From the NCBI GenBank assembly GCA_016871015.1, contig VFZX01000016.1, positions 1-46,917 of the forward strand: a DNA stretch of 46,917 nucleotides, written 5' to 3'. The stretch's first letter is position 1; every line of letters begins with the position of its first letter. The position numbers and the translations under genes were made by a program. The DNA is from Acidobacteriota bacterium. Its GTDB lineage: Bacteria; Acidobacteriota; Terriglobia; Bryobacterales; Bryobacteraceae. The notes beneath the pieces were generated by a model that had not been told where the DNA came from, ran no database searches, and saw only the letters and a program-made list of their open reading frames with translations. This document shows, one piece after another, positions 3,014 to 17,594 of this stretch.

Positions 3014-5710
3014 ATGCAGCTTGATAAAGTGTACGAACCCCAACGGTTCGAACCGCGCTGGGCTCAGTCCTGGATCGATTCCGGTATTTTCCACGCCCCT
3101 ACGGCCGAGTCGAGCGCCGGCCGCGACGTGTTCACCCTCGTCATCCCGCCGCCGAACGTGACCGGTTCGCTCCACATGGGCCACATGCTGGAGCACACCG
3201 AAATCGACGTGACGATCCGCTGGCACCGCATGCGCGGCGACGCCACATTGTGGCTGCCGGGAACCGACCACGCAGGGATCGCAACGCAGATGGTGGTGGA
3301 GCGCCAGCTCGCGGCCGAGGGAACCAACCGCCACGCGCTCGGACGCGAAGCCTTTGAGGAGCGGGTCTGGAAATGGAAGGCCGAGTCCGGCGGAACCATA
3401 AAACGGCAGATGATCCAGGTAGGCGCCTCATGCGACTGGTCCCGTGAGCGGTTCACCCTGGATGAGGGGCTGAACCGGGCGGTCCGCGAGACTTTCTGCA
3501 GGCTGTACGAGAAGGGACTCATCTATCGCGGGACCTACATGATCAACTGGTGTCCGCGCTGCCAGACGGCGTTGTCGGATCTCGAAGTGGACCACGCCGC
3601 GATGCCGGGCAGCCTTTGGCACATCCGGTACCCAGTGATTGGCACGGACGAGTTCCTGACGGTGGCGACCACGCGTCCCGAGTCCATGCTGGGCGACACG
3701 GCGGTGGCAATCAACGCGCGCGACACACGCTACCAGCATCTGCACGGCAAGACAGTCCGGCTGCCGCTCATGGATCGTGAGATCCCGATCGTGCTCGATG
3801 ACATGGCGGATCCCGAGTTCGGCACCGGATGCGTGAAGGTGACTCCGGCGCACGACCTGAACGACTTCGAGTGCGGACGGCGGCACAATCTGCCCAGCAT
3901 CAGCGTGATCGACACGCACGCGCGGATCACAGCAGCGGGTGGCGTGTACGCGGGGCTCGACCGCTACGAAGCCCGCAAGCGGATCGCCGCGGATCTGGAG
4001 CAGCAGGGGTACCTGGTGAAAACCGAACCGTACGCGCTATCGGCCGGCCAGTGCCAGCGCTGCAAGACGGTGGTCGAGCCGCTCGTGTCGACGCAATGGT
4101 TCTGCAAGATGAAACCGCTGGCCGAGCCCGCGATCGCCTGTGTCGAAGACGACCGGATCCGCTTCATTCCCGAGGCTTGGACCAAGACGTACTTCGAGTG
4201 GATGCGCAACATCCGCGACTGGTGCGTGTCGCGCCAGCTCTGGTGGGGACACCGGATTCCGGCATGGCACTGCAAGGATTGCGGTGACGTCACGGTGGCG
4301 CGCGAGACTCCGGCGGCGTGCGGTTCGTGCCAGTCAGCCGGGATCGTGCAGGATCCCGACGTGCTCGACACGTGGTTCAGCTCGGGGCTCTGGCCCTTCT
4401 CGACCATGGGCTGGCCGGAACAGACCGAAGACCTGGCGCGGTTCTATCCGACAAGCCTGTTGATCACGGGATTCGACATCCTGTTCTTCTGGGTGGCGCG
4501 GATGATCATGCTGGGCCTGGAAATGATGGGCGACGTTCCGTTCCGCCAGGTCTACATCCATGGACTGGTGCGTGACGCGGAGCGCCAGAAGATGTCCAAG
4601 ACCAAGGGCAATGTGATCGATCCGCTTGAGGTGACGGTGAAGTACGGCACGGATGCGGTTCGCATGAGCCTGCTGCAGGGGGCGGCGCCGGGCACCGACA
4701 TCGTGCTGACCGACGAGCGGATGCAGACGGCGCGCGCGTTCGCCAACAAGATCTGGAACGCGGCGCGGTTCGTGTTTCTCAAGATGGAGCAGTCGGGCGT
4801 GGAGCCGTGGGTCCCCGGTGAGGTGGTCATGCGCCCAGTGGGCGAGTCGCCGTCGCTTGAAGACCGGTGGATCTTCTCGCGGTTGAACCGTTGCGCCGAC
4901 CAGATGAACCGGTCCATCGCCAACTACCGGTACCACGAAGCCGCGCAGACCGCGTGGGGCTTCTTCTGGCACGAGTTTTGCGACTGGTACGTGGAGTTGA
5001 AGAAGCTGCGGTTCACTGAAGGATCAGGGCTGACCGCGGACTGGAAGAATATGTTGACGGTGTTCGAGTCGGCGCTGCGGCTGTTGCATCCGGTGATGCC
5101 GTTCCTCACCGAAGAGTTGTGGCAGCGCGTTGCGGCGAATTGGACCGTGCGCCCGCAGTCGATCGCGCTGACCGCATATCCTCAGTGCGACACTGCTGGA
5201 ATCGATGAGGCCGCCGAGTCCGACATGGGGTTACTGCAGGAGATCATCACCGCGGCGCGAAACCTGCGGGCGGAGTTGAAACTCGATCCCAAGGAGCAGC
5301 TCAGCGGGGTCCTCTATTCGTCTGGCCGTGCGTTGGAAGTGGCCGGGGCTGAGCCAGAGGCGGTGTCGAAACTGGCGGGAGTCAAGCTGGATCTTCGGGC
5401 CGGACAGGCGCCGAAGCTCGGTGGGGCCATGCGGGCGACGCCGGATTTCGACCTCGGCCTGGAGGTTCCGGCCGCGCAGTTGGAAGTGCTGCGGAAGCGC
5501 CTCGAAAAAGAGATCGAGCAGTTGGACAAGACGATCGCGAATTCGCAGCGGCAGCTTGGCGATGAGAAGTTTTTAAGCCGCGCGCCGGATCACGTGGTGG
5601 CGGGCATCCGGGAGAAGCTTGCGGAATACGAGTCGCAGGTGGCGAAGAGCCGGGAGTCGCTGGCAGCCTTGGGTGGTGCTCACCTGAATCTGGCGGGAGA
5701 ACGGACATGA
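3014..5710 (+). CDS. valS: Valyl-tRNA synthetase
   Basis: 898 residues, normal length for bacterial ValRS. This class I synthetase charges tRNA-Val in the cytoplasm. The N-terminal [13 protein letters not shown] holds the HIGH-type signature (HMGH, 54-57). The editing domain follows ([19 protein letters not shown]). The KMSKS loop is KMSKTKGN at about 526, then the anticodon-binding helical domain. The C-terminal 70 residues form the ValRS-type coiled coil, rich in Lys, Glu and Leu. ATG 3014 gives the expected N-terminus. The upstream gene is divergent and the downstream gene convergent, so valS is transcribed alone. A TACACT at 2994-2999 may be its -10 box; its -35 is unclear. Confidence 0.97.
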
Positions 5711-7936: not shown

Positions 7937-10900
7937 ATGTTGGACACTATTGCAATGAGCCCCTCCAGCCGCCGCCGGTTTCTCCAGTCCGGCGCGGCAC
8001 TCACCGCGTTTGGTTTCGATCTACGCCCTGCCCAGGCTGCGGTCCGCGAACTGAAAATCTCACGCACGACGCAGACGCATTCAGTGTGTCCGTATTGTGC
8101 CGTGGGATGCTCGGTGGTGATCCACACTCTCGGCGACAAGGCGCGCAACGTCAAGCCCGCGGTGGTCCACATCGAAGGGGATCCCGAGAGTCCGATCAAT
8201 CGCGGCACGCTGTGTCCGAAAGGCATCTCGCTCAAGGAGTTCGTCAACAGCCCGCGCCGGCTGACGCGGCCGCTCTACCGCGCACCTGGCGCCAAGGACT
8301 GGACCCCGATCTCCTGGGAGGAAGCCTTCACGAAAATGGCGGCGCGGATCAAGAAATCGCGTGACGCCGGATTCAAGGCCAAGGACGACCAGGGCCGCAC
8401 GGTAAACCGGCTGGACAACATCGCCATGATCGGCGGCTGCACGGACGCCAACGAAGTGAACTTCCTGATGTCGAAGTTCCGCTTCGGACTGGGGATCCTG
8501 CCCTACGAAAACCAGGCCCGTCTTTGACACGGCCCCACGGTGGCCAGTCTGGCCGCGACCTTCGGACGGGGAGCAATGACCAACGGCTGGTGCGATGTCG
8601 CCAATGCGGACGTCGTGCTGGTGATGGGCGGGAATCCGGCGGAGAACCACCCGGTGGGATTCCGGTTCGTGATGGAAGCCCGGCGCAACCGCGGCGCCAA
8701 GCTGGTGTGCGTGGATCCGCGGTTCAACCGAACGGCAGCGGTGAGCGACACCTACGTACCCATCCGCGCGGGCACCGACATCGCGTTCCTCGGCGGATTG
8801 ATCCACTACTCACTGTCGACCGGCAAGTACCAGGCCGACTACGTCCGGCAGCACACCAATGCGGGTTTCCTGGTCAAGGAAGGCTACGGATTCGAGAATG
8901 GCCACTTCAGCGGCTGGGACGCGGCCAAGAAGAGCTATGACAAGTCGAGCTGGCAGTACGAAACCGGCCCAGACGGATTCGTGCGCACGGATCCCACGTT
9001 CGAGCATCCGCGCAGCGTCTTCCAGTTGATGAAGAAGCACTACTCGCGGTACACGCCGGAGAAGGTGTCTGAGGTGTGCGGCTGTACGCCGGAGCAGTTC
9101 ACCAAGGCGGCGGAGATGATCACCGTCGCGGCGGCCAAGGACAAGTCCGGCACGGTGCTGTACGCGCTGGGATGGACCCAGCACAGCCACGCGGTCCAGT
9201 TGATCCACACCGCGGCGATGGTCCAGTTGCTGATGGGGAACATCGGCATGCCCGGCGGCGGAGTAAACGCGCAACGTGGACACGCCAATATCCAGGGCGC
9301 AACCGACATGGGCTCGTGGATGAATCTGCCGGGCTACCTGAAGATCCCGCGGGCGAGCCAGACGGCCCTCGACGCCTATCTGAAGGCGAACACGCCCAAA
9401 GCGCTGCGGCCCGATTCGCTCAACTATTGGGGCAACACGCCAAAATTCATGGTGAGCCTGCTCAAGACCTATTACGGCGACCAAGCCACCAAGGCGAACG
9501 GTTTCGGCTATGACTGGCTGCCCAAGCTCGGCGACGGCGAGAACCAAAGCTGGGGCTACTTCTTTGACCGCATGTACGCGGGCGGGCTCCAGGGGATGAT
9601 CAGCTTCGGGATGAATCCGGTGGCGAACGGTCCCAACACGGCAAAGATGCTGGGTGCGCTCGCCAAGCTCGACTGGATGATCGTCGCCGAGAATTTTGAG
9701 ACCGAAACCGCCGCGTTCTGGAAAGCGAAGCCGCTCGCCAGTGAGTACTACGGCGAGGCGCCTGCGCCGGAGGACATCAAGACCGAAGTGTTCCTGCTGC
9801 CCGCCTCCTGCTTTGCGGAAAAGGACGGAGCGTTCGTCAACTCCTCGCGCTGGCTGCAGTGGAAAGAGGCGGCGCTCGATCCGCCCGGCGACGCCAAGCT
9901 CGACCAGGACATCATCGCCGAGCTGTTCCTTCGGATCCGCGCGTTGTATGAGAAGGACGGCGGTCCATCGCCGGAGCCCCTGATGGCCATGAGTTGGAAC
10001 TACGCGACGCCGCGGTCGCCGCTGTTGGCCGAGGTCGCGCGCGAGGTCAACGGCCACGATCTCGCCACTGGACGCCGGCTCTCCGGATTCGGCGAGCTGA
10101 AGGACGACGGCACAACCACGAGCGGCAACTGGATCTACAGCGGCATGTGGCCGGAGTCCGGAAACCTGATGGCGCGGCGTGTGCAAGAGGATCCAACCGG
10201 GCTTGGCTTGTATCCGCAGTGGGCCTGGTCGTGGCCCGCCAACCGCAGGATCCTGTACAACCGCGCATCGGTCGACAACACCGGCAAGCCCTGGGATCCC
10301 ACGCGCGCGCCTCTGAAGTGGAACGGCCAGCGCTGGTCCGGCGACACACCGGACTACAAGGCCGACGCGGCTCCCGACAAGTTCGGAGCTTTCATCATGA
10401 ACGCGGAAGGCGTCGCCAAGCTGTTTGCGGCGGACCTGGCCGAGGGCCCATTCCCGGAGCACTACGAACCGTGGGAATCGCCCGTGCCAAATCCCATGCA
10501 CCCGGAGGTCAGCTTCAACCCCGTGGCGAAGGTGTTCACCTCGGCCGCGGACAAGCAAGGCACTCCCGACAAGTTCCCGTACGTCGGCATCACCTACCGG
10601 CTCACCGAGCACTTCCATTTCTGGACCAAGCACACGGCGGGCAGCTCGCAGCTCCAGTCGAATTTCTTCGTCGAGATCGGTGAGGATCTGGCCAAGGAGA
10701 AGGGGCTCAAGTCCGGCGACAAGGTCCGTGTGTCCACCGCGCGCGGCAAGGTGGAGGGCCCGGCGCTCGTGACGCGCCGCATGAAGGGACTCAAGGTGAA
10801 CGGCAAGATCGTGCACCAGGTGGGACTCCCGATCCACTGGGGATTCCTCGGCCACGTGTCCGGACCGCTGATCAACAACCTGACGCCCTCGGTGTTTGAT

Positions 10901-10960
10901 CCCAACTCGGGAACGCCCGAGTACAAGGGATTCCTCGTCAACGTGGAGAAAATCGCATGA
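7937..10960 (+). CDS. Formate dehydrogenase alpha subunit, selenocysteine-containing (FdnG/FdoG type)
   Basis: 1007 residues when the in-frame TGA at 8525-8527 is read as selenocysteine (codon 197). Reading stop-to-stop would split it into two false genes. The context QARL-U-HGPTVASLAATFGRG matches the respiratory formate dehydrogenase active site, where Sec ligates the Mo/W bis-pyranopterin cofactor. The N-terminus has a twin-arginine signal (SRRRFLQSG), so the enzyme is exported folded to the periplasmic face. A [4Fe-4S] site follows (C51, C54, C58 and a Cys near 95). The C-terminal molybdopterin-dinucleotide-binding domain is complete. It oxidises formate to CO2 and passes electrons to the beta subunit, whose gene overlaps it by ATGA. 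ATG 7955 is an alternative start that keeps the whole Tat signal. Selenocysteine machinery must lie elsewhere in the genome. Confidence 0.95.
8525..8563 (+). promoter_or_regulatory. Bacterial SECIS element following the Sec UGA
   Basis: Directly after the TGA, GGT-GGCC-AGTCT-GGCC-GCG-ACC (8539-8560) can fold into a hairpin: GGCC/GGCC closes an AGUCU loop, and GGU/ACC pairs below a GCG bulge. The loop and its distance from UGA are like those of the E. coli fdnG/fdhF SECIS (AGUCU/GGUCU loops), which bind SelB. Confidence 0.8.
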
Positions 10961-12353: not shown

Positions 12354-12995
12354 ATGAAACGGTCCCTGTTCCTCCTGGCGCTTGGCGGCGCATCCTGCAC
12401 ACGGCTGTTCTACAAGGCGAGCGCCACCATCGGACGCGAGAAGCGCGACATCCTCACCTCGCGCGTCAAGGACGCCCGGAAGGATCAGGAGGAGGCCAAG
12501 GAGCAGTTCCAGACAACGCTCGAAGCCTTCCAGGCCGTCACCGGATTCCAGGGCGGCAAGCTCGAAGACGTCTACAGCAAGCTGAGCAAAGAGTTCGACC
12601 GGTGCGAGGACCGCGCCAAGGACGTCAGCGACCGCATCGAGTCCATCGAGAAGGTCGCCAAGGACATGTTCCGCGAGTGGAGCAAGGAGATCGACGAGAT
12701 CGGCGACCGCTCGCTCCGCACCCAAAGCCGCACGCTGCTGCGCGACACGCAGACCCGCTATGACGCGCTCGCCGGGAAGCTCAAGGAGTCTGAGCGGCGG
12801 ATGACGCCGGTATTGCGCGCGTTCCGCGACCAGGTGCTGTTCCTCAAGCACAACTTGAACGCCCGCGCGATCCAGTCGCTCAAGGACACCTCGGTCAAGA
12901 TCGACGCCGACGTGACCGCGCTCATCCGCGACATGGATGCTTCCATTCGCGAGGCGGATGCGTTCGTCGCCACCCTCGCCAAACAGGAGTCGTAG
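12354..12995 (+). CDS. DUF2959 family coiled-coil lipoprotein-like protein
   Basis: 213 residues, one base after the gamma-subunit stop. The N-terminus MKRSLFLLALGGASC is a short signal with a lipobox-like AS-C, so it may be lipid-anchored. Most of the rest is charged and helical with coiled-coil character, including REKRDILTSRVKDARKDQEE, a GFQGGKLEDVYSKL segment and a C-terminal helix ending in VATLAKQES. This pattern matches DUF2959, whose function is unknown. Its place directly behind the dehydrogenase genes implies cotranscription, but I see no mechanistic link; DUF2959 genes also occur alone. Confidence 0.8.
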   Translation: MKRSLFLLALGGASCTRLFYKASATIGREKRDILTSRVKDARKDQEEAKEQFQTTLEAFQAVTGFQGGKLEDVYSKLSKEFDRCEDRAKDVSDRIESIEKVAKDMFREWSKEIDEIGDRSLRTQSRTLLRDTQTRYDALAGKLKESERRMTPVLRAFRDQVLFLKHNLNARAIQSLKDTSVKIDADVTALIRDMDASIREADAFVATLAKQES

Positions 12996-13006
12996 AGCGT
13001 CTGGGG

Positions 13007-13813
13007 ATGATCCTCGCCGCCAGCCTGGTCCTGATGCAACTGGCGCAGAATCCGTCGCCGATGACGGAGACCACGCGCGCGCATCCCCGCCTGAAACAAG
13101 TGGAGCCGGCGGGCCGCCGCATTGACATGCGGGTGGGACGCCTGTTCCTGCCCGCCAGATTCAAGCCCGGAGGAAAGAAGCCGCTGATCGTGCACTTCCA
13201 CGGTGCGCCCTGGATCGCTGAGCTGGCAGGCGAGCTGCAGCGGACCGCGGTGGTCACGGTCCAGTTGGGCGCGGGCTCATCGCGCTACGCCGCGCCGTTC
13301 CGCGAGGATCCCGAGCTGTTCCGCAAGCTGCTGGCGGAAGCGCGCGAAATGGCGAAGACCCAGTTCGATCCCGTGATCCTTTCAAGCTGGAGCGCGGGCT
13401 ACGGCGCGATCCGCGAGATCCTGCGCGGGACGCTGCCGCCCGTGGGGATCCGGATCTTGCTGATCGATTCGGTCCACGCGGGTTATTCCGAGGCGGCGCA
13501 GACCGACCCGTCGGACATGGCCGAGTTTCTCGATTTCGCCAGGCTGGCAACCCAGGGCAAGCGGCGGATGGCGATCGTGCACTCGGAGATCTATCCGGGG
13601 ACGTTCGCGTCGACCACGGAAACCGCCGACTATCTGCTGGCGAAACTGGGCATCCGGCGCAAGGCGGTGCTCCGTTGGGGTCCGATGGGGACGCAGCAGT
13701 TGAGTGACACCCGGCGCGGCGGACTGCGGGTGATGGGCTTCGCGGGCAACTCCGCGCCCGACCACATCGATCACATCCACGCGCTGCCCGAGTTTCTCAA
13801 GATGATGCGGTAA
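13007..13813 (+). CDS. Alpha/beta-hydrolase-like protein, probably secreted
   Basis: 268 residues; the ATG follows TGGGG closely. After a short hydrophobic N-terminus, PLIVHFHGAPW (about 59-69) looks like the oxyanion strand of alpha/beta hydrolases. SSWSAGYG (126-133) gives a nucleophile-elbow-like Ser129, though the first glycine of GxSxG is Ser. LLIDSVHAGY near 153 may supply the acid and DHIDHIHAL near the C-terminus the histidine. The substrate cannot be told. It is 11 bases after the DUF2959 gene and probably the last gene of that transcript. I have no close named family. Confidence 0.6.
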   Translation: MILAASLVLMQLAQNPSPMTETTRAHPRLKQVEPAGRRIDMRVGRLFLPARFKPGGKKPLIVHFHGAPWIAELAGELQRTAVVTVQLGAGSSRYAAPFREDPELFRKLLAEAREMAKTQFDPVILSSWSAGYGAIREILRGTLPPVGIRILLIDSVHAGYSEAAQTDPSDMAEFLDFARLATQGKRRMAIVHSEIYPGTFASTTETADYLLAKLGIRRKAVLRWGPMGTQQLSDTRRGGLRVMGFAGNSAPDHIDHIHALPEFLKMMR

Positions 13814-13819
13814 CTCAGG

Positions 13820-13828
13820 TGGTAGAAT
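13820..13828 (+). promoter_or_regulatory. Extended -10 promoter of the SIR2-NACHT gene
   Basis: TGGTAGAAT is a good extended -10 element (TGn-TAGAAT). It ends 7 bases before the ATG at 13836, so transcription would begin at or next to the start codon. No -35 match and no ribosome binding site are visible, which fits an extended -10 and a leaderless message. Confidence 0.45.
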
Positions 13829-13835
13829 CGGCGCA

Positions 13836-16556
13836 ATGACAGCCAGGTTCGCCGAACAGGCGCTGACGATCCTTGGGGGGCGAGGAGACAACAAGAGAAA
13901 TCTGCGGGACCTGGGCGACCACCTGCACCAACTGGTGCCGTTCGTGGGCGCGGGGATGTCGATGCCGTTCGGGTACCCGGCTTGGGGTGGACTGGTGAAG
14001 AGCCTCGCGCCAGACGGCGTGAAGGCTGAAGTCGAAGCGCTGTTGAAGCATTTTCATTACGAGGACGCGGCGGCTGCCATTGCGGATGAAGTCGCACCCA
14101 AGCAGTTCCGGCAGGCGATCGCGGAGGCGTTCGCGGAGTCGGAGCTGCCAGTGCCGCTGGCAGGGGCGGTGACTCATCTCGCAAGAGTCGCGAAAGGCCC
14201 CGTGATCACGACGAATCTCGACCGGGTCCTGGAGCGGGCGTTCAAAGAGGCGGGCAACGAGTTTCAGTCGGTCTTCGCGTCCGGCCCGATCGGACCGGCG
14301 TCCGGGGCGATCCACAAAGGGCAGCGCGCGCTGATCAAGATCCACGGGGACTACGGGAACCCGCCTTGGGTGCTAACCAAAGACGAGTACGAAGAGGCGT
14401 ACGGCCGTACCGCTACCGCGCCAGTGGACATGAGCAAGCCGCTGCCGACTCTACTGCGTCAGGCCGTGAGCGCGCGGGTGCTATTGTTCCTGGGATGCAG
14501 TCTTCAGGGCGACCGGACCGTGCAGGTGATCGCGCAGGTGGTCAAGGATCTCGGCGTCGAGCACTTCGCGCTCCTGCCGGACACCGAGAACACACCGGAA
14601 CGCTTGAAACAGTTCGAGGACTGGAAAATCCGGCCATTGTTCTACGGAAAGGGCCGGCATGACGTCATCGAGCCGTTTCTCCAGTGCATCGCCGGTGCGA
14701 TTACGGACCAGCCCACCGCCGCCCCGAGTCCGAAAACGCTGGTGGCGCAGCTCCGGGCGCAAGTGGCGGATTCGATCCGTTTGCGGTGCGGCACGATCAA
14801 GGTGCTCGATATGGAGCAGCCGATCGGTCTCGGCTCTCTGTACACCGATGTTCATATCCTGGAGCAGTTGACCAGCCGGCAGCGTTCGGATGTCGAGCAA
14901 TTGCTGCGGGACCGCGGCAGCGATCCGAACCGGTTCGGACTGCCGCCCCGCAAGGAGAGAGTGGCGGGACTCGCGGCGTTCGGGCAGCATCGCCACCTCT
15001 TGATCTATGGCAAGCCGGGCGCGGGAAAGACGACGTTCCTCAAGCGGCTCGCCTTCGAGTGCAACGAAGGGCGGCTCCGCGCGGATCATGTCCCGGCGTA
15101 CGTTCCGCTTCGTGAATTCGCCGACGCCGGCGGGAACCCGGCGTTGGCCTCCTATATCCAGCAGCCGTGGCAGGGAGCCGGGACGAAAGCCGTCCTCAAG
15201 GAGGGGCGCATCCTGGTGTTGCTCGATGGCCTGGACGAAGTTCAGGATGCCAAGTTTACCAGGGTCCGGAGAGCGGTCGAGGATCTGCTCAAGGACTACC
15301 CGAACTGTCCGGTGGTCGTTACGTGCCGGATTGCCTCACGGGAGTACGCCTTCCCGGGTTTCACCGAAGTGGAAATGGCCGACTTCGGGGACGAACAGAT
15401 CCGGATCTTCAGCGGAAACTGGTTCAACGCGCGCAATCAGCCCGCGAAGGCAGAACCGTTCTTGAGGAGATTGGAGGAGAACGAACGTCTGAAAGAGCTG
15501 GCGCAAACTCCGCTCCTGCTGACGCTACTGTGCATCGTCTTCGAAGCGCGCGGCAACTTTGACGGGTCCCGCGCCAAATTGTACCAGGAGGGAGTGGACG
15601 TCCTCTTGAAGAAGTGGGATGCATCGCGGGACATCCGGCGGGAACGGCCTGAGTGGTTGACCGCCGAAGCTGTGGAGGATCTCCTCGAGGAGATTGCGTT
15701 CCGGAAGATGGAGAGTTCCGAGGTGTACTTCGAACAAGCAGCGCTTGCGCGGACAGTGCAGGACTTCCTCACAGCCCGCGGCGTTCAGACGCCAGTCCCA
15801 CCGGAAGGAGTCCTCGCAATTGTCGAGAGCCAACTCGGACTCCTTGTGCAAAGGGCCAGGGGAGTCTACTCGTTCTCGCACCTCACGTTCCAGGAGTTCT
15901 TCGCAGCCAGAAGGATCGCGAAGAATCCCGGTCTGCTCGATCGCGTTGGCGGGCGCTTCGGCGACACCCGGTGGACCGAGGTGCGGCGCCTCGTGGCCTC
16001 GCTCGTGGATGGTGAGTATCTTTTCCCGAGACTGAAGTCCCTGACGGATGCGATGGTGCAGAGCGAGCCGAAGCTCAGCGCGATCGTGTCGTGGACCGCG
16101 CGGAAGGCCGCGGCGGGCGGAAGCCGCTATCGCCCGTCGGCCGTTCGAGCCTATTACGCGTGGCTCTTCATCGACCTCGCCCGCCACATCGACCTCGACC
16201 TCGACCGCGCGATTCATGCCGCTCGAACCATCGCTCCCGCGCTTGTTCCCGAGATTGAGGAACTGAGAAAACTCTATGCGACTATCCCGCGAGCCAGGTG
16301 GGAAGACAAGCTGCGATGGTTCATGCAGGAGCACCGCGACATCGGCCATGAGTGGGGATTGGACAGACGGCAAGCTGAGATCTGGCACGAGTACCTGAGC
16401 GCCAACATACTCCTCGTTCCGCTCATGAAAGAATCCCGGACCCTCAGTCCCACCACCCGGACCCAAATCGAAGACAGCATCCTCACCCTGCCCGATGGGT
16501 CGCCCGGACTCCCCCCTGCCGCCGGAACACGAAGAACTCGCTCGCCACAAAATTGA
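13836..16556 (+). CDS. SIR2-NACHT STAND ATPase, NLR-like antiphage defence protein
   Basis: 906 residues. Residues ~25-290 form a SIR2-like domain: FVGAGMSMPFG (36-46) for NAD binding, ITTNLDRVLE with Asn127, and LIKIHGD with candidate catalytic His170. A linker with LGSLYTDVHI (331-340) leads to a NACHT ATPase: Walker A GKPGAGKTT (392-400), Walker B VLLDGLDEV (461-469), sensor VVTCRIASREY (494-504), and the helical SHLTFQEFFAARR near 685. The last ~200 residues include RPSAVRAYYAWLFIDLA, typical of bacterial NACHT tails, without obvious LRR, TPR or HEAT repeats. Related STAND proteins sense a phage component, oligomerise, and the SIR2 head depletes NAD. It has its own promoter-like element and no partner genes, so it is probably a single-gene system. 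Its last 74 bases overlap the end of the gtrA-like gene on the other strand. Confidence 0.85.
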   Translation: MTARFAEQALTILGGRGDNKRNLRDLGDHLHQLVPFVGAGMSMPFGYPAWGGLVKSLAPDGVKAEVEALLKHFHYEDAAAAIADEVAPKQFRQAIAEAFAESELPVPLAGAVTHLARVAKGPVITTNLDRVLERAFKEAGNEFQSVFASGPIGPASGAIHKGQRALIKIHGDYGNPPWVLTKDEYEEAYGRTATAPVDMSKPLPTLLRQAVSARVLLFLGCSLQGDRTVQVIAQVVKDLGVEHFALLPDTENTPERLKQFEDWKIRPLFYGKGRHDVIEPFLQCIAGAITDQPTAAPSPKTLVAQLRAQVADSIRLRCGTIKVLDMEQPIGLGSLYTDVHILEQLTSRQRSDVEQLLRDRGSDPNRFGLPPRKERVAGLAAFGQHRHLLIYGKPGAGKTTFLKRLAFECNEGRLRADHVPAYVPLREFADAGGNPALASYIQQPWQGAGTKAVLKEGRILVLLDGLDEVQDAKFTRVRRAVEDLLKDYPNCPVVVTCRIASREYAFPGFTEVEMADFGDEQIRIFSGNWFNARNQPAKAEPFLRRLEENERLKELAQTPLLLTLLCIVFEARGNFDGSRAKLYQEGVDVLLKKWDASRDIRRERPEWLTAEAVEDLLEEIAFRKMESSEVYFEQAALARTVQDFLTARGVQTPVPPEGVLAIVESQLGLLVQRARGVYSFSHLTFQEFFAARRIAKNPGLLDRVGGRFGDTRWTEVRRLVASLVDGEYLFPRLKSLTDAMVQSEPKLSAIVSWTARKAAAGGSRYRPSAVRAYYAWLFIDLARHIDLDLDRAIHAARTIAPALVPEIEELRKLYATIPRARWEDKLRWFMQEHRDIGHEWGLDRRQAEIWHEYLSANILLVPLMKESRTLSPTTRTQIEDSILTLPDGSPGLPPAAGTRRTRSPQN

Positions 16557-16899
16557 GAAGCGACGCCGTGGCAATCGCAATCAGGTTCGCCGCCAGGTAG
16601 TGAATCCCCAGCCACCCGGCAAGCACCCGCATGAGGACCACATTAGCGGCAATCGACAGCAGCCCCGTCGTGAGATTGAACCGCACGAACGCCCGCCAGC
16701 CGCCTTCGCGCTCTTTCCAGGTCCAGCGGTCATGCCACAGGAAATTGTGGATGACCACCACCTCCACCGCCGCCGCCGTCGCAATCAAATACGGCCAGCC
16801 CAGCACACTCTTAAACAGCGCCAGCGCCACCAACTGGACTCCAATTCCCAATCCGCCAACGGTGTAGAACTTGAGTCCCCGGACGGCCAGTCCGCTCAC
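16483..16899 (-). CDS. GtrA-like small membrane protein
   Basis: 138 residues from a GTG that overlaps the upstream gene's stop by 4 bases (GTGA). A longer ORF continues upstream in this frame but would run through the phosphatidyltransferase gene, so the internal start is preferred. Four membrane segments are visible (about 8-28, 36-55, 75-95, 100-120). The motifs FYTVGGLG near the start, HNFLWHDRWTWK and ASLLNFVASEFFVF fit the GtrA family, which helps move polyprenyl-linked sugars across the inner membrane or decorate cell-surface polymers. Pairing with a CDP-alcohol phosphatidyltransferase suggests envelope lipid or glycan work. Its 3' end lies antisense to the SIR2-NACHT gene. Confidence 0.8.
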   Translation of the reverse strand: MSGLAVRGLKFYTVGGLGIGVQLVALALFKSVLGWPYLIATAAAVEVVVIHNFLWHDRWTWKEREGGWRAFVRFNLTTGLLSIAANVVLMRVLAGWLGIHYLAANLIAIATASLLNFVASEFFVFRRQGGVRATHRAG

Positions 16900-17594
16900 G
16901 GCAGCCGCTCTTCGTTGTACAGCCGGCGCGTGTGCTGGAACACCGCGTTCAACAGCATCACGCCCAGGCCGATGACGCCCACCACCCCGCCGATGTCGAA
17001 CAGCAGGTGGCGCTCGCCCGCGATCACCGCCCAGGGTCCCCGGAACAGCAGGACCAGGTTGCCGATGCACAACAGGATCCGCAGCTCGGTCGGGCTGAAC
17101 TTCCAGAACGACAGGTGAAACGTGCCGATCGTGTAAGTCGCCAGATAGACCTCGATCGACAGCATGAAATAGGCAATGATCAGCCCGATGGCCACCGGCC
17201 CGCTCATCCACCCGGACATCCCCAGGCCGCCCAGCAGGAACAGGGTCCCGAACATGTCCACCACGTGATCGACGTAGAATCCGTAGCGCGGCCGCTGCCG
17301 GTTGCGGACCCGGGCGAGCGTGCCGTCGAGCGAGTCGCCAAACCAGTTGACGATGAGGCAGCCGATCACCAACCAGAGTCCGATGGGATTGGACGCCGAA
17401 TACCAGTAGCTGAGACCGGCCGCGAGCAGCGACACGAGTCCGAGCGACGTCAGGTGGTCCGAGTTGACCCAGGCCGGCATCCGTTGCGCCAGCCAGATCA
17501 GCACCCGCTTCTCGAGCGGGGCGAGCAGACTCATTTGCGCGCGCTGTGCTTCCTTGAATCCCGGCTTGGTAGGAGTTGCCATTGCGGTTGCCAT
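16896..17594 (-). CDS. CDP-alcohol phosphatidyltransferase
   Basis: 232 residues. The family signature D-x2-DG-x2-AR-x8-G-x3-D-x3-D is complete (DSLDGTLARVRNRQRPRYG then FYVDHVVD), near residues 87-112, so the metal-binding active site looks intact. About six membrane helices follow the usual layout. The enzyme should transfer a phosphatidyl or similar group from a CDP-linked donor to an alcohol at the inner membrane; the alcohol cannot be predicted. ATG 17582 is an alternative start. It lies 40 bases after a PepSY-type gene and overlaps the gtrA-like gene, so all four leftward genes may share a transcript. Confidence 0.88.
   Translation of the reverse strand: MATAMATPTKPGFKEAQRAQMSLLAPLEKRVLIWLAQRMPAWVNSDHLTSLGLVSLLAAGLSYWYSASNPIGLWLVIGCLIVNWFGDSLDGTLARVRNRQRPRYGFYVDHVVDMFGTLFLLGGLGMSGWMSGPVAIGLIIAYFMLSIEVYLATYTIGTFHLSFWKFSPTELRILLCIGNLVLLFRGPWAVIAGERHLLFDIGGVVGVIGLGVMLLNAVFQHTRRLYNEERLP

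Follow-up and report, generated by a model that had tools for sequence, protein, structure and literature searches.

The DNA analysed here, a stretch of 46,917 nucleotides (hereafter the window) from contig VFZX01000016.1 of an Acidobacteriota bacterium (assembly GCA_016871015.1; Bryobacteraceae), carries a single gene that bears on the targets of bacterial NLR-like proteins and on their ability to follow changing phages. The open reading frame (ORF) at positions 13836-16556 of the forward strand, on which the other window features also lie unless stated otherwise, starts with ATG, is open throughout and is a real gene encoding a SIR2-NACHT-NCH2 protein of 906 residues. We consider that this is probably a solitary bacterial NLR-like protein of the NACHT STAND type with a predicted NADase head, most likely serving abortive infection.

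Three Pfam matches define the architecture, namely SIR2_2 (residues 123-268, 5.2e-24), NACHT (PF05729, residues 387-531, positions 14994-15428, 2.3e-17, 63.7 bits against a Pfam cut-off of 26.7) and NCH2 (PF22727, "NACHT C-terminal Helical domain 2", residues 819-883, positions 16290-16484, 1.5e-12). All three scores exceed the curated cut-offs, and the assignments are therefore well beyond chance; an N-terminal effector and a C-terminal NACHT-associated domain are both present, as in bacterial NACHT proteins. Alignment to solved structures and to other heads extends the SIR2-like head to approximately residues 32-290 (13929-14705), in which the GAG loop (residues 38-40, 13947-13955), Asn127 of the TTN motif (codon at 14214-14216) and His170 (codon at 14343-14345) were located by motif and head alignment. 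From knowledge of the SIR2 family, we take Asn127 and His170 to be the catalytic residues. In the NACHT domain, Walker A (GKPGAGKT, residues 392-399, 15009-15032) and a NACHT-type Walker B (LVLLDGLDE, residues 460-468, 15213-15239) are intact, and R498 of the TCR motif is invariant across four SIR2-NACHT orthologues, the window protein included. An earlier sequence-only reading of this DNA had placed the same key residues in the head and had listed Walker A, Walker B and a sensor in the NACHT module, and both statements were confirmed. The best solved matches of the NACHT core, by sequence, are NLRC4 and NLRP3.

Among solved proteins, the head aligns best with KomC (6e-7; called a NADase in one entry) and also with ThsA (8.7e-6), and both alignments span the TTN and HGD motifs, while its PADLOC matches are to ThsA (1.8e-14) and LmuA (3.3e-14). 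The GAG, Asn and His residues are kept in all 11 aligned heads. Seven of these heads belong to proteins that show no NACHT match over the available stretch, and all 11 were picked by similarity to an intact head and are biased toward intact ones. The possibility that inactive-site homologues are common, which had been named as a ground for refuting the defence proposal, is thus only weakly opposed. Relatives of the head (35-42% identical) sit on other bodies, including an NB-ARC domain (L015), TPR repeats (L013), an AAA_16 match under the cut-off (L014) or nothing recognised (L016 and L070). Two further relatives (L017 and L018) carry a second SIR2_2 domain, their first head being 35-41% identical to that of the window protein. 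Since SIR2 folds include deacylases, the head could instead act as a sirtuin-like deacylase or sense a nucleotide for regulation, and the second-best solved match (9v0g, 1.2e-6), named by its depositors a NAD-dependent protein deacetylase, points in that direction. However, the best match is named a NADase, ThsA is next, and the head precedes a STAND core, an arrangement shared with Avs5, for which cleavage of NAD has been shown (PMC12931631), which makes a non-NADase head very improbable.

The predicted NADase fits a mode of action known from related families. In STAND proteins a C-terminal sensor is coupled via the ATPase core to an N-terminal effector, and bacterial NACHT proteins protect against phages, their C-terminus acting as the sensor (PMC12169576). 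Avs5 depletes NAD upon activation of its SIR2 part and requires its Walker A and Walker B motifs as well as its C-terminus (PMC12931631). A review citing Kibby et al. mentions NACHT proteins that carry SIR2 effectors (PMC10952713); SIR2 on NACHT is an already known architecture, and no named SIR2-NACHT-NCH2 system was found in the literature searched. By analogy with these families, the C-terminal part of the window protein (the post-NACHT helical region, a short array remnant and NCH2) would sense an infection signal, presumably of phage origin, and the NACHT ATPase would change state and oligomerise, bringing together the SIR2 heads, which would then cleave NAD and stop the infected cell. 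The C-terminal sensor had been described as short and lacking classical repeats; no repeat family matches the protein at 0.001, but that description overlooked NCH2 as well as the array remnant that precedes it (TCGACC x 6, 73% matches, 16171-16206, detected by Tandem Repeats Finder, TRF), though the remnant is weak alone.

The window protein resembles the bacterial NACHT/NLR-related (bNACHT) proteins, reportedly treated by Kibby et al. in 2023, in its order of effector, NACHT and C-terminal sensor, in its NACHT signature and in its NACHT C-terminal helical domain. SIR2 effectors are likewise reported for that family (PMC10952713), whereas the groups described in PMC12169576 have SNaCT (clade 14) or NCH1 and a nuclease (clade 6) and the window protein combines SIR2 with NCH2, its relatives adding a repeat array. 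With Avs5 it shares an N-terminal SIR2_2 head on a STAND ATPase in a single protein and the logic of NAD depletion, but Avs5 has an nSTAND3 core and TPR/Sel1/PPR C-terminal repeats (PMC12931631). At 0.001, the window protein matches neither nSTAND3 (PF20720) nor these repeat families, having NACHT and NCH2 instead, and Avs5 membership was rejected for lack of that core and those repeats; PF20720 matches in two orthologues (G163, 0.0045; G064, 0.0016) fall under the cut-off. Because the core is NACHT rather than nSTAND3 and the C-terminus is NCH2 rather than TPR/Sel1, a trigger unlike that of Avs proteins, as the earlier reading had expected, is plausible. EruA (NF058535; 39.6 bits, NACHT part only, against an NCBIfam equivalog cut-off of 1000) and Dsr1 (NF041818; 19.2 bits against 1400) were also rejected as identities. 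ThsA, KomC and Dsr1/Dsr2 resemble the protein in the SIR2 head, with the TTN and HG motifs aligned; to our knowledge, they have different partners and switches and no NACHT core.

Further relatives share the NACHT body. Cyanobacterial and Chloroflexota NACHT-NCH2 proteins (e.g., L048 of Nostoc C057 and the Chloroflexota protein L009) are 33-41% identical over the body and share the NCH2 domain and the array position, but their N-terminal regions differ, and no SIR2 match was found in the five of them scanned. In a NACHT tree built by a single method with a midpoint root, the four SIR2-NACHT proteins form one branch (support 0.997) nested in a clade (support 1.000) with the cyanobacterial and Chloroflexota NACHT-NCH2 proteins and a protein of genome G274. 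Outside this clade fall 25 further NACHT proteins sampled in the same bacterial family, five of which come from the same genome. These relationships suggest that the gene arose by placing a SIR2 head onto the kind of NACHT-NCH2 body that cyanobacteria have in common.

The gene is scattered in its distribution. Of the 237 genomes searched in the bacterial family, 4, the own genome included, carry a full-length SIR2-NACHT relative (43-50% identity); the three orthologues are those of G163, G064 and G023, the last cut by a contig end before NCH2. Together with the domains and the catalytic residues of the 11 heads, this occurrence backs the proposal of a single-gene SIR2-NACHT defence candidate. 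When 396 genomes of the phylum were searched with a profile, the own genome and G274 were returned, the latter covering only model positions 310-726. Of the window proteins queried (17 in all), no other matched in the stretches around the three orthologues, and the ORFs neighbouring these orthologues look different, as judged by eye. NCH2 was found in one of 297 phylum genomes, the own genome, in a sample where the three orthologues gave no hit; it was also found in one of 151 genomes of the G494 phylum, namely G494, and in all three Chloroflexota genomes reached through loci. With a Nostoc NCH2 query, which favours cyanobacteria, 33 of 72,556 plasmid records matched, all from cyanobacterial genera.

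This plasmid carriage bears on what the protein answers to, since 13 of those 33 records, gathered with the same query, are predicted to be mobilizable or conjugative. A NAD-depleting STAND switch of the same chemistry could respond to stress, plasmids or cell-cell signals rather than to phages, and the N-terminus of a cyanobacterial plasmid NACHT-NCH2 protein (L045), with weak helix-turn-helix matches under the cut-off, would agree with such a role, as would the lack of a phage link in the phage records and the viral-contig scan. We find this alternative unlikely, given that characterised bacterial NACHT proteins act against phages (PMC12169576) and that the head resembles the SIR2 parts of defence systems in PADLOC (ThsA and LmuA). 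Besides the 9v0g match, several observations nevertheless weigh against a role in abortive infection. No relative matched in phage records and none was found on viral contigs in three pattern-based scans, and carriage of the gene by phages or viral contigs was rejected on these searches. The scanned neighbour genes gave no defence matches, and the nearest defence candidate, a Septu-like pair, lies approximately 11 kb off. AlphaFold models of the window protein (mean pLDDT 36.3) and of the Chloroflexota protein L009 (40.6) are unusable. Finally, the array remnant of the window has a TRF score of 44, tied third of the 20 rows in the window, and its 6-bp periodicity (z 2.0) is barely over chance.

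The remnant aligns with the array position of the G163 and G023 orthologues, in the segment that follows the NACHT helical part, which closes with RAFY or a similar motif, and leads up to NCH2. In the relatives the array differs in length and in the order of its units; it comprises approximately 39 copies of a 6-bp unit in G163 (65% matches) and approximately 30 in G023 (80% matches), and similar arrays occur on plasmids of Nostoc N6, Nostoc C057 and Allocoleopsis and in two Chloroflexota genomes. In array segments picked by eye, all 29 hexamers of G023 read in frame as G[C/A]C C[T/G]C, with four positions invariant, the two varying positions both altering the amino acid (Ala/Asp and Leu/Arg) and third codon positions never varying; C ends 59 of 59 codons. 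The two Nostoc arrays have a G+C content of 72% and 61%, against 38% in the preceding 1500 bases, and the fraction of codons with C in third position is 0.79 and 0.74 in them, compared with 0.14 and 0.13 ahead of them. Compared with codon shuffles, 6-bp periodicity was clear (z of at least 4.0) in 8 of 23 genes, between 2 and below 4 in four (the window gene included) and below 2 in 11. These genes are not independent and were scored in sets of 8 and 15 with a slightly different region-end rule; a gene split in two in its record (L067) was left out, and in five (L011, L046, L047, L058 and L069) the NCH2 motif was unrecognised, so that the region ran to the protein end and the scores are diluted.

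Comparison of close relatives gives a mixed picture of array stability. Three Chloroflexota genes share 80-88% over the 200 residues before the array region and are 66-73% identical on the NCH2 side; their array regions measure 137, 155 and 87 residues and are 44-64% identical where alignable, one gene lacking 6-bp periodicity (z 0.3). Other observations speak against instability, as five plasmid genes of Nostoc carry a non-repetitive 83-residue segment at the array site, 100% and 95% identical in the two pairs compared, and the window gene and that of G064, both of the SIR2 branch, have almost no array. The near-identical plasmid genes compared (four of L061-L065, in pairs) are non-array versions. 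Since the arrays are clear in 8 of the 23 genes, but the segment is non-repetitive or nearly absent in others, they are common in the NACHT-NCH2 clade yet not required. In a Nostoc sp. MS1 plasmid (pNSMS105, L066, 458-2832), a NACHT-NCH2 gene is apparently broken into several annotated ORFs, with the array region retained. The contig carrying the G023 orthologue (C37, L012) ends inside the hexanucleotide array (3767-3946), and assemblies may therefore break at arrays and conceal the NCH2 ends of such genes.

Two readings of the array were considered. The array may be a mere low-complexity linker whose length changes by slippage, with NCH2 alone or the NACHT helical part as the sensor, which we judge to have a little less than an even chance and which is compatible with an NLR-like defence protein. 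Its length, from the remnant in the window to approximately 100 codons (G163 and C057) with NACHT and NCH2 still recognised, agrees with a linker, as do the Nostoc genes with the 83-residue segment and the near absence of an array in the window gene and G064. On the other hand, the G023 hexamers vary solely at the two amino-acid-changing positions, and one small set of codons is used again and again by cyanobacterial, Chloroflexota and window-group proteins alike. As a guess, the array in the relatives would serve the sensor as a contact or spacer element that changes fast. More tentatively still than the linker, and with the odds against it, this NLR-like branch of Cyanobacteriota, Chloroflexota and the group of the window may diversify its sensor through the built-in array, slippage and recombination reshuffling dipeptide units ([A/D][L/R], or S/T/D with L/R/F) whose number changes in frame, with the third codon positions left constant. 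The literature searched, which most subscription papers lie outside, contained no report of NACHT sensors with hexanucleotide-coded arrays, and the nearest published idea, retroelement-driven diversification of NACHT-linked sensors, is a different mechanism (PMC10907252). If true, the proposal would mean sensor diversification without a retroelement, here joined to a NAD-destroying head; related strains would offer natural sensor variants for target mapping, with the SIR2 head supplying a simple NAD read-out. Should the array prove to be merely a linker, the gene would remain a clean example of the NACHT-NCH2 type that carries a predicted NADase head.

The gene had also been described as sitting alone with its own extended -10 element. 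Such an element, TGGTAGAAT (13820-13828), was found seven bases 5' of the ATG, and because the pattern TG.TA..AT occurs once per strand in the whole window, it is a fair extended -10 candidate; transcription may start at or beside the ATG, giving a leaderless mRNA. No -35/-10 promoter pair was found across 12900-16900. The gene does not stand entirely alone, as an ORF on the same strand (13007-13813) stops 22 bp ahead of it and the final 74 bp of the SIR2-NACHT gene overlap a convergent GtrA-type gene (16483-17211), the last 23 residues of the protein lying past the NCH2 match and opposite the end of that gene. The two other genomes of its genus have homologues of this upstream gene; in the surroundings of these homologues, inspected for an empty insertion site, the other 16 window proteins queried gave no match. 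The Septu-like pair (93-2527), which the earlier reading had not noted, nor the repeat array of the relatives, is a second defence candidate on the same contig and consists of two overlapping genes matching PtuA (93-1607, 2e-45) and PtuB (1604-2527, 8.7e-36). The window also holds a gene for a formate dehydrogenase-N alpha subunit (7937-10960) with an in-frame TGA at 8525-8527 followed by HGPTVASLAAT. This TGA is likely a selenocysteine codon, and the genome contains, besides nine weaker matches that fall under the cut-off, one tRNA-Sec match of 73.8 bits against an Rfam cut-off of 47.
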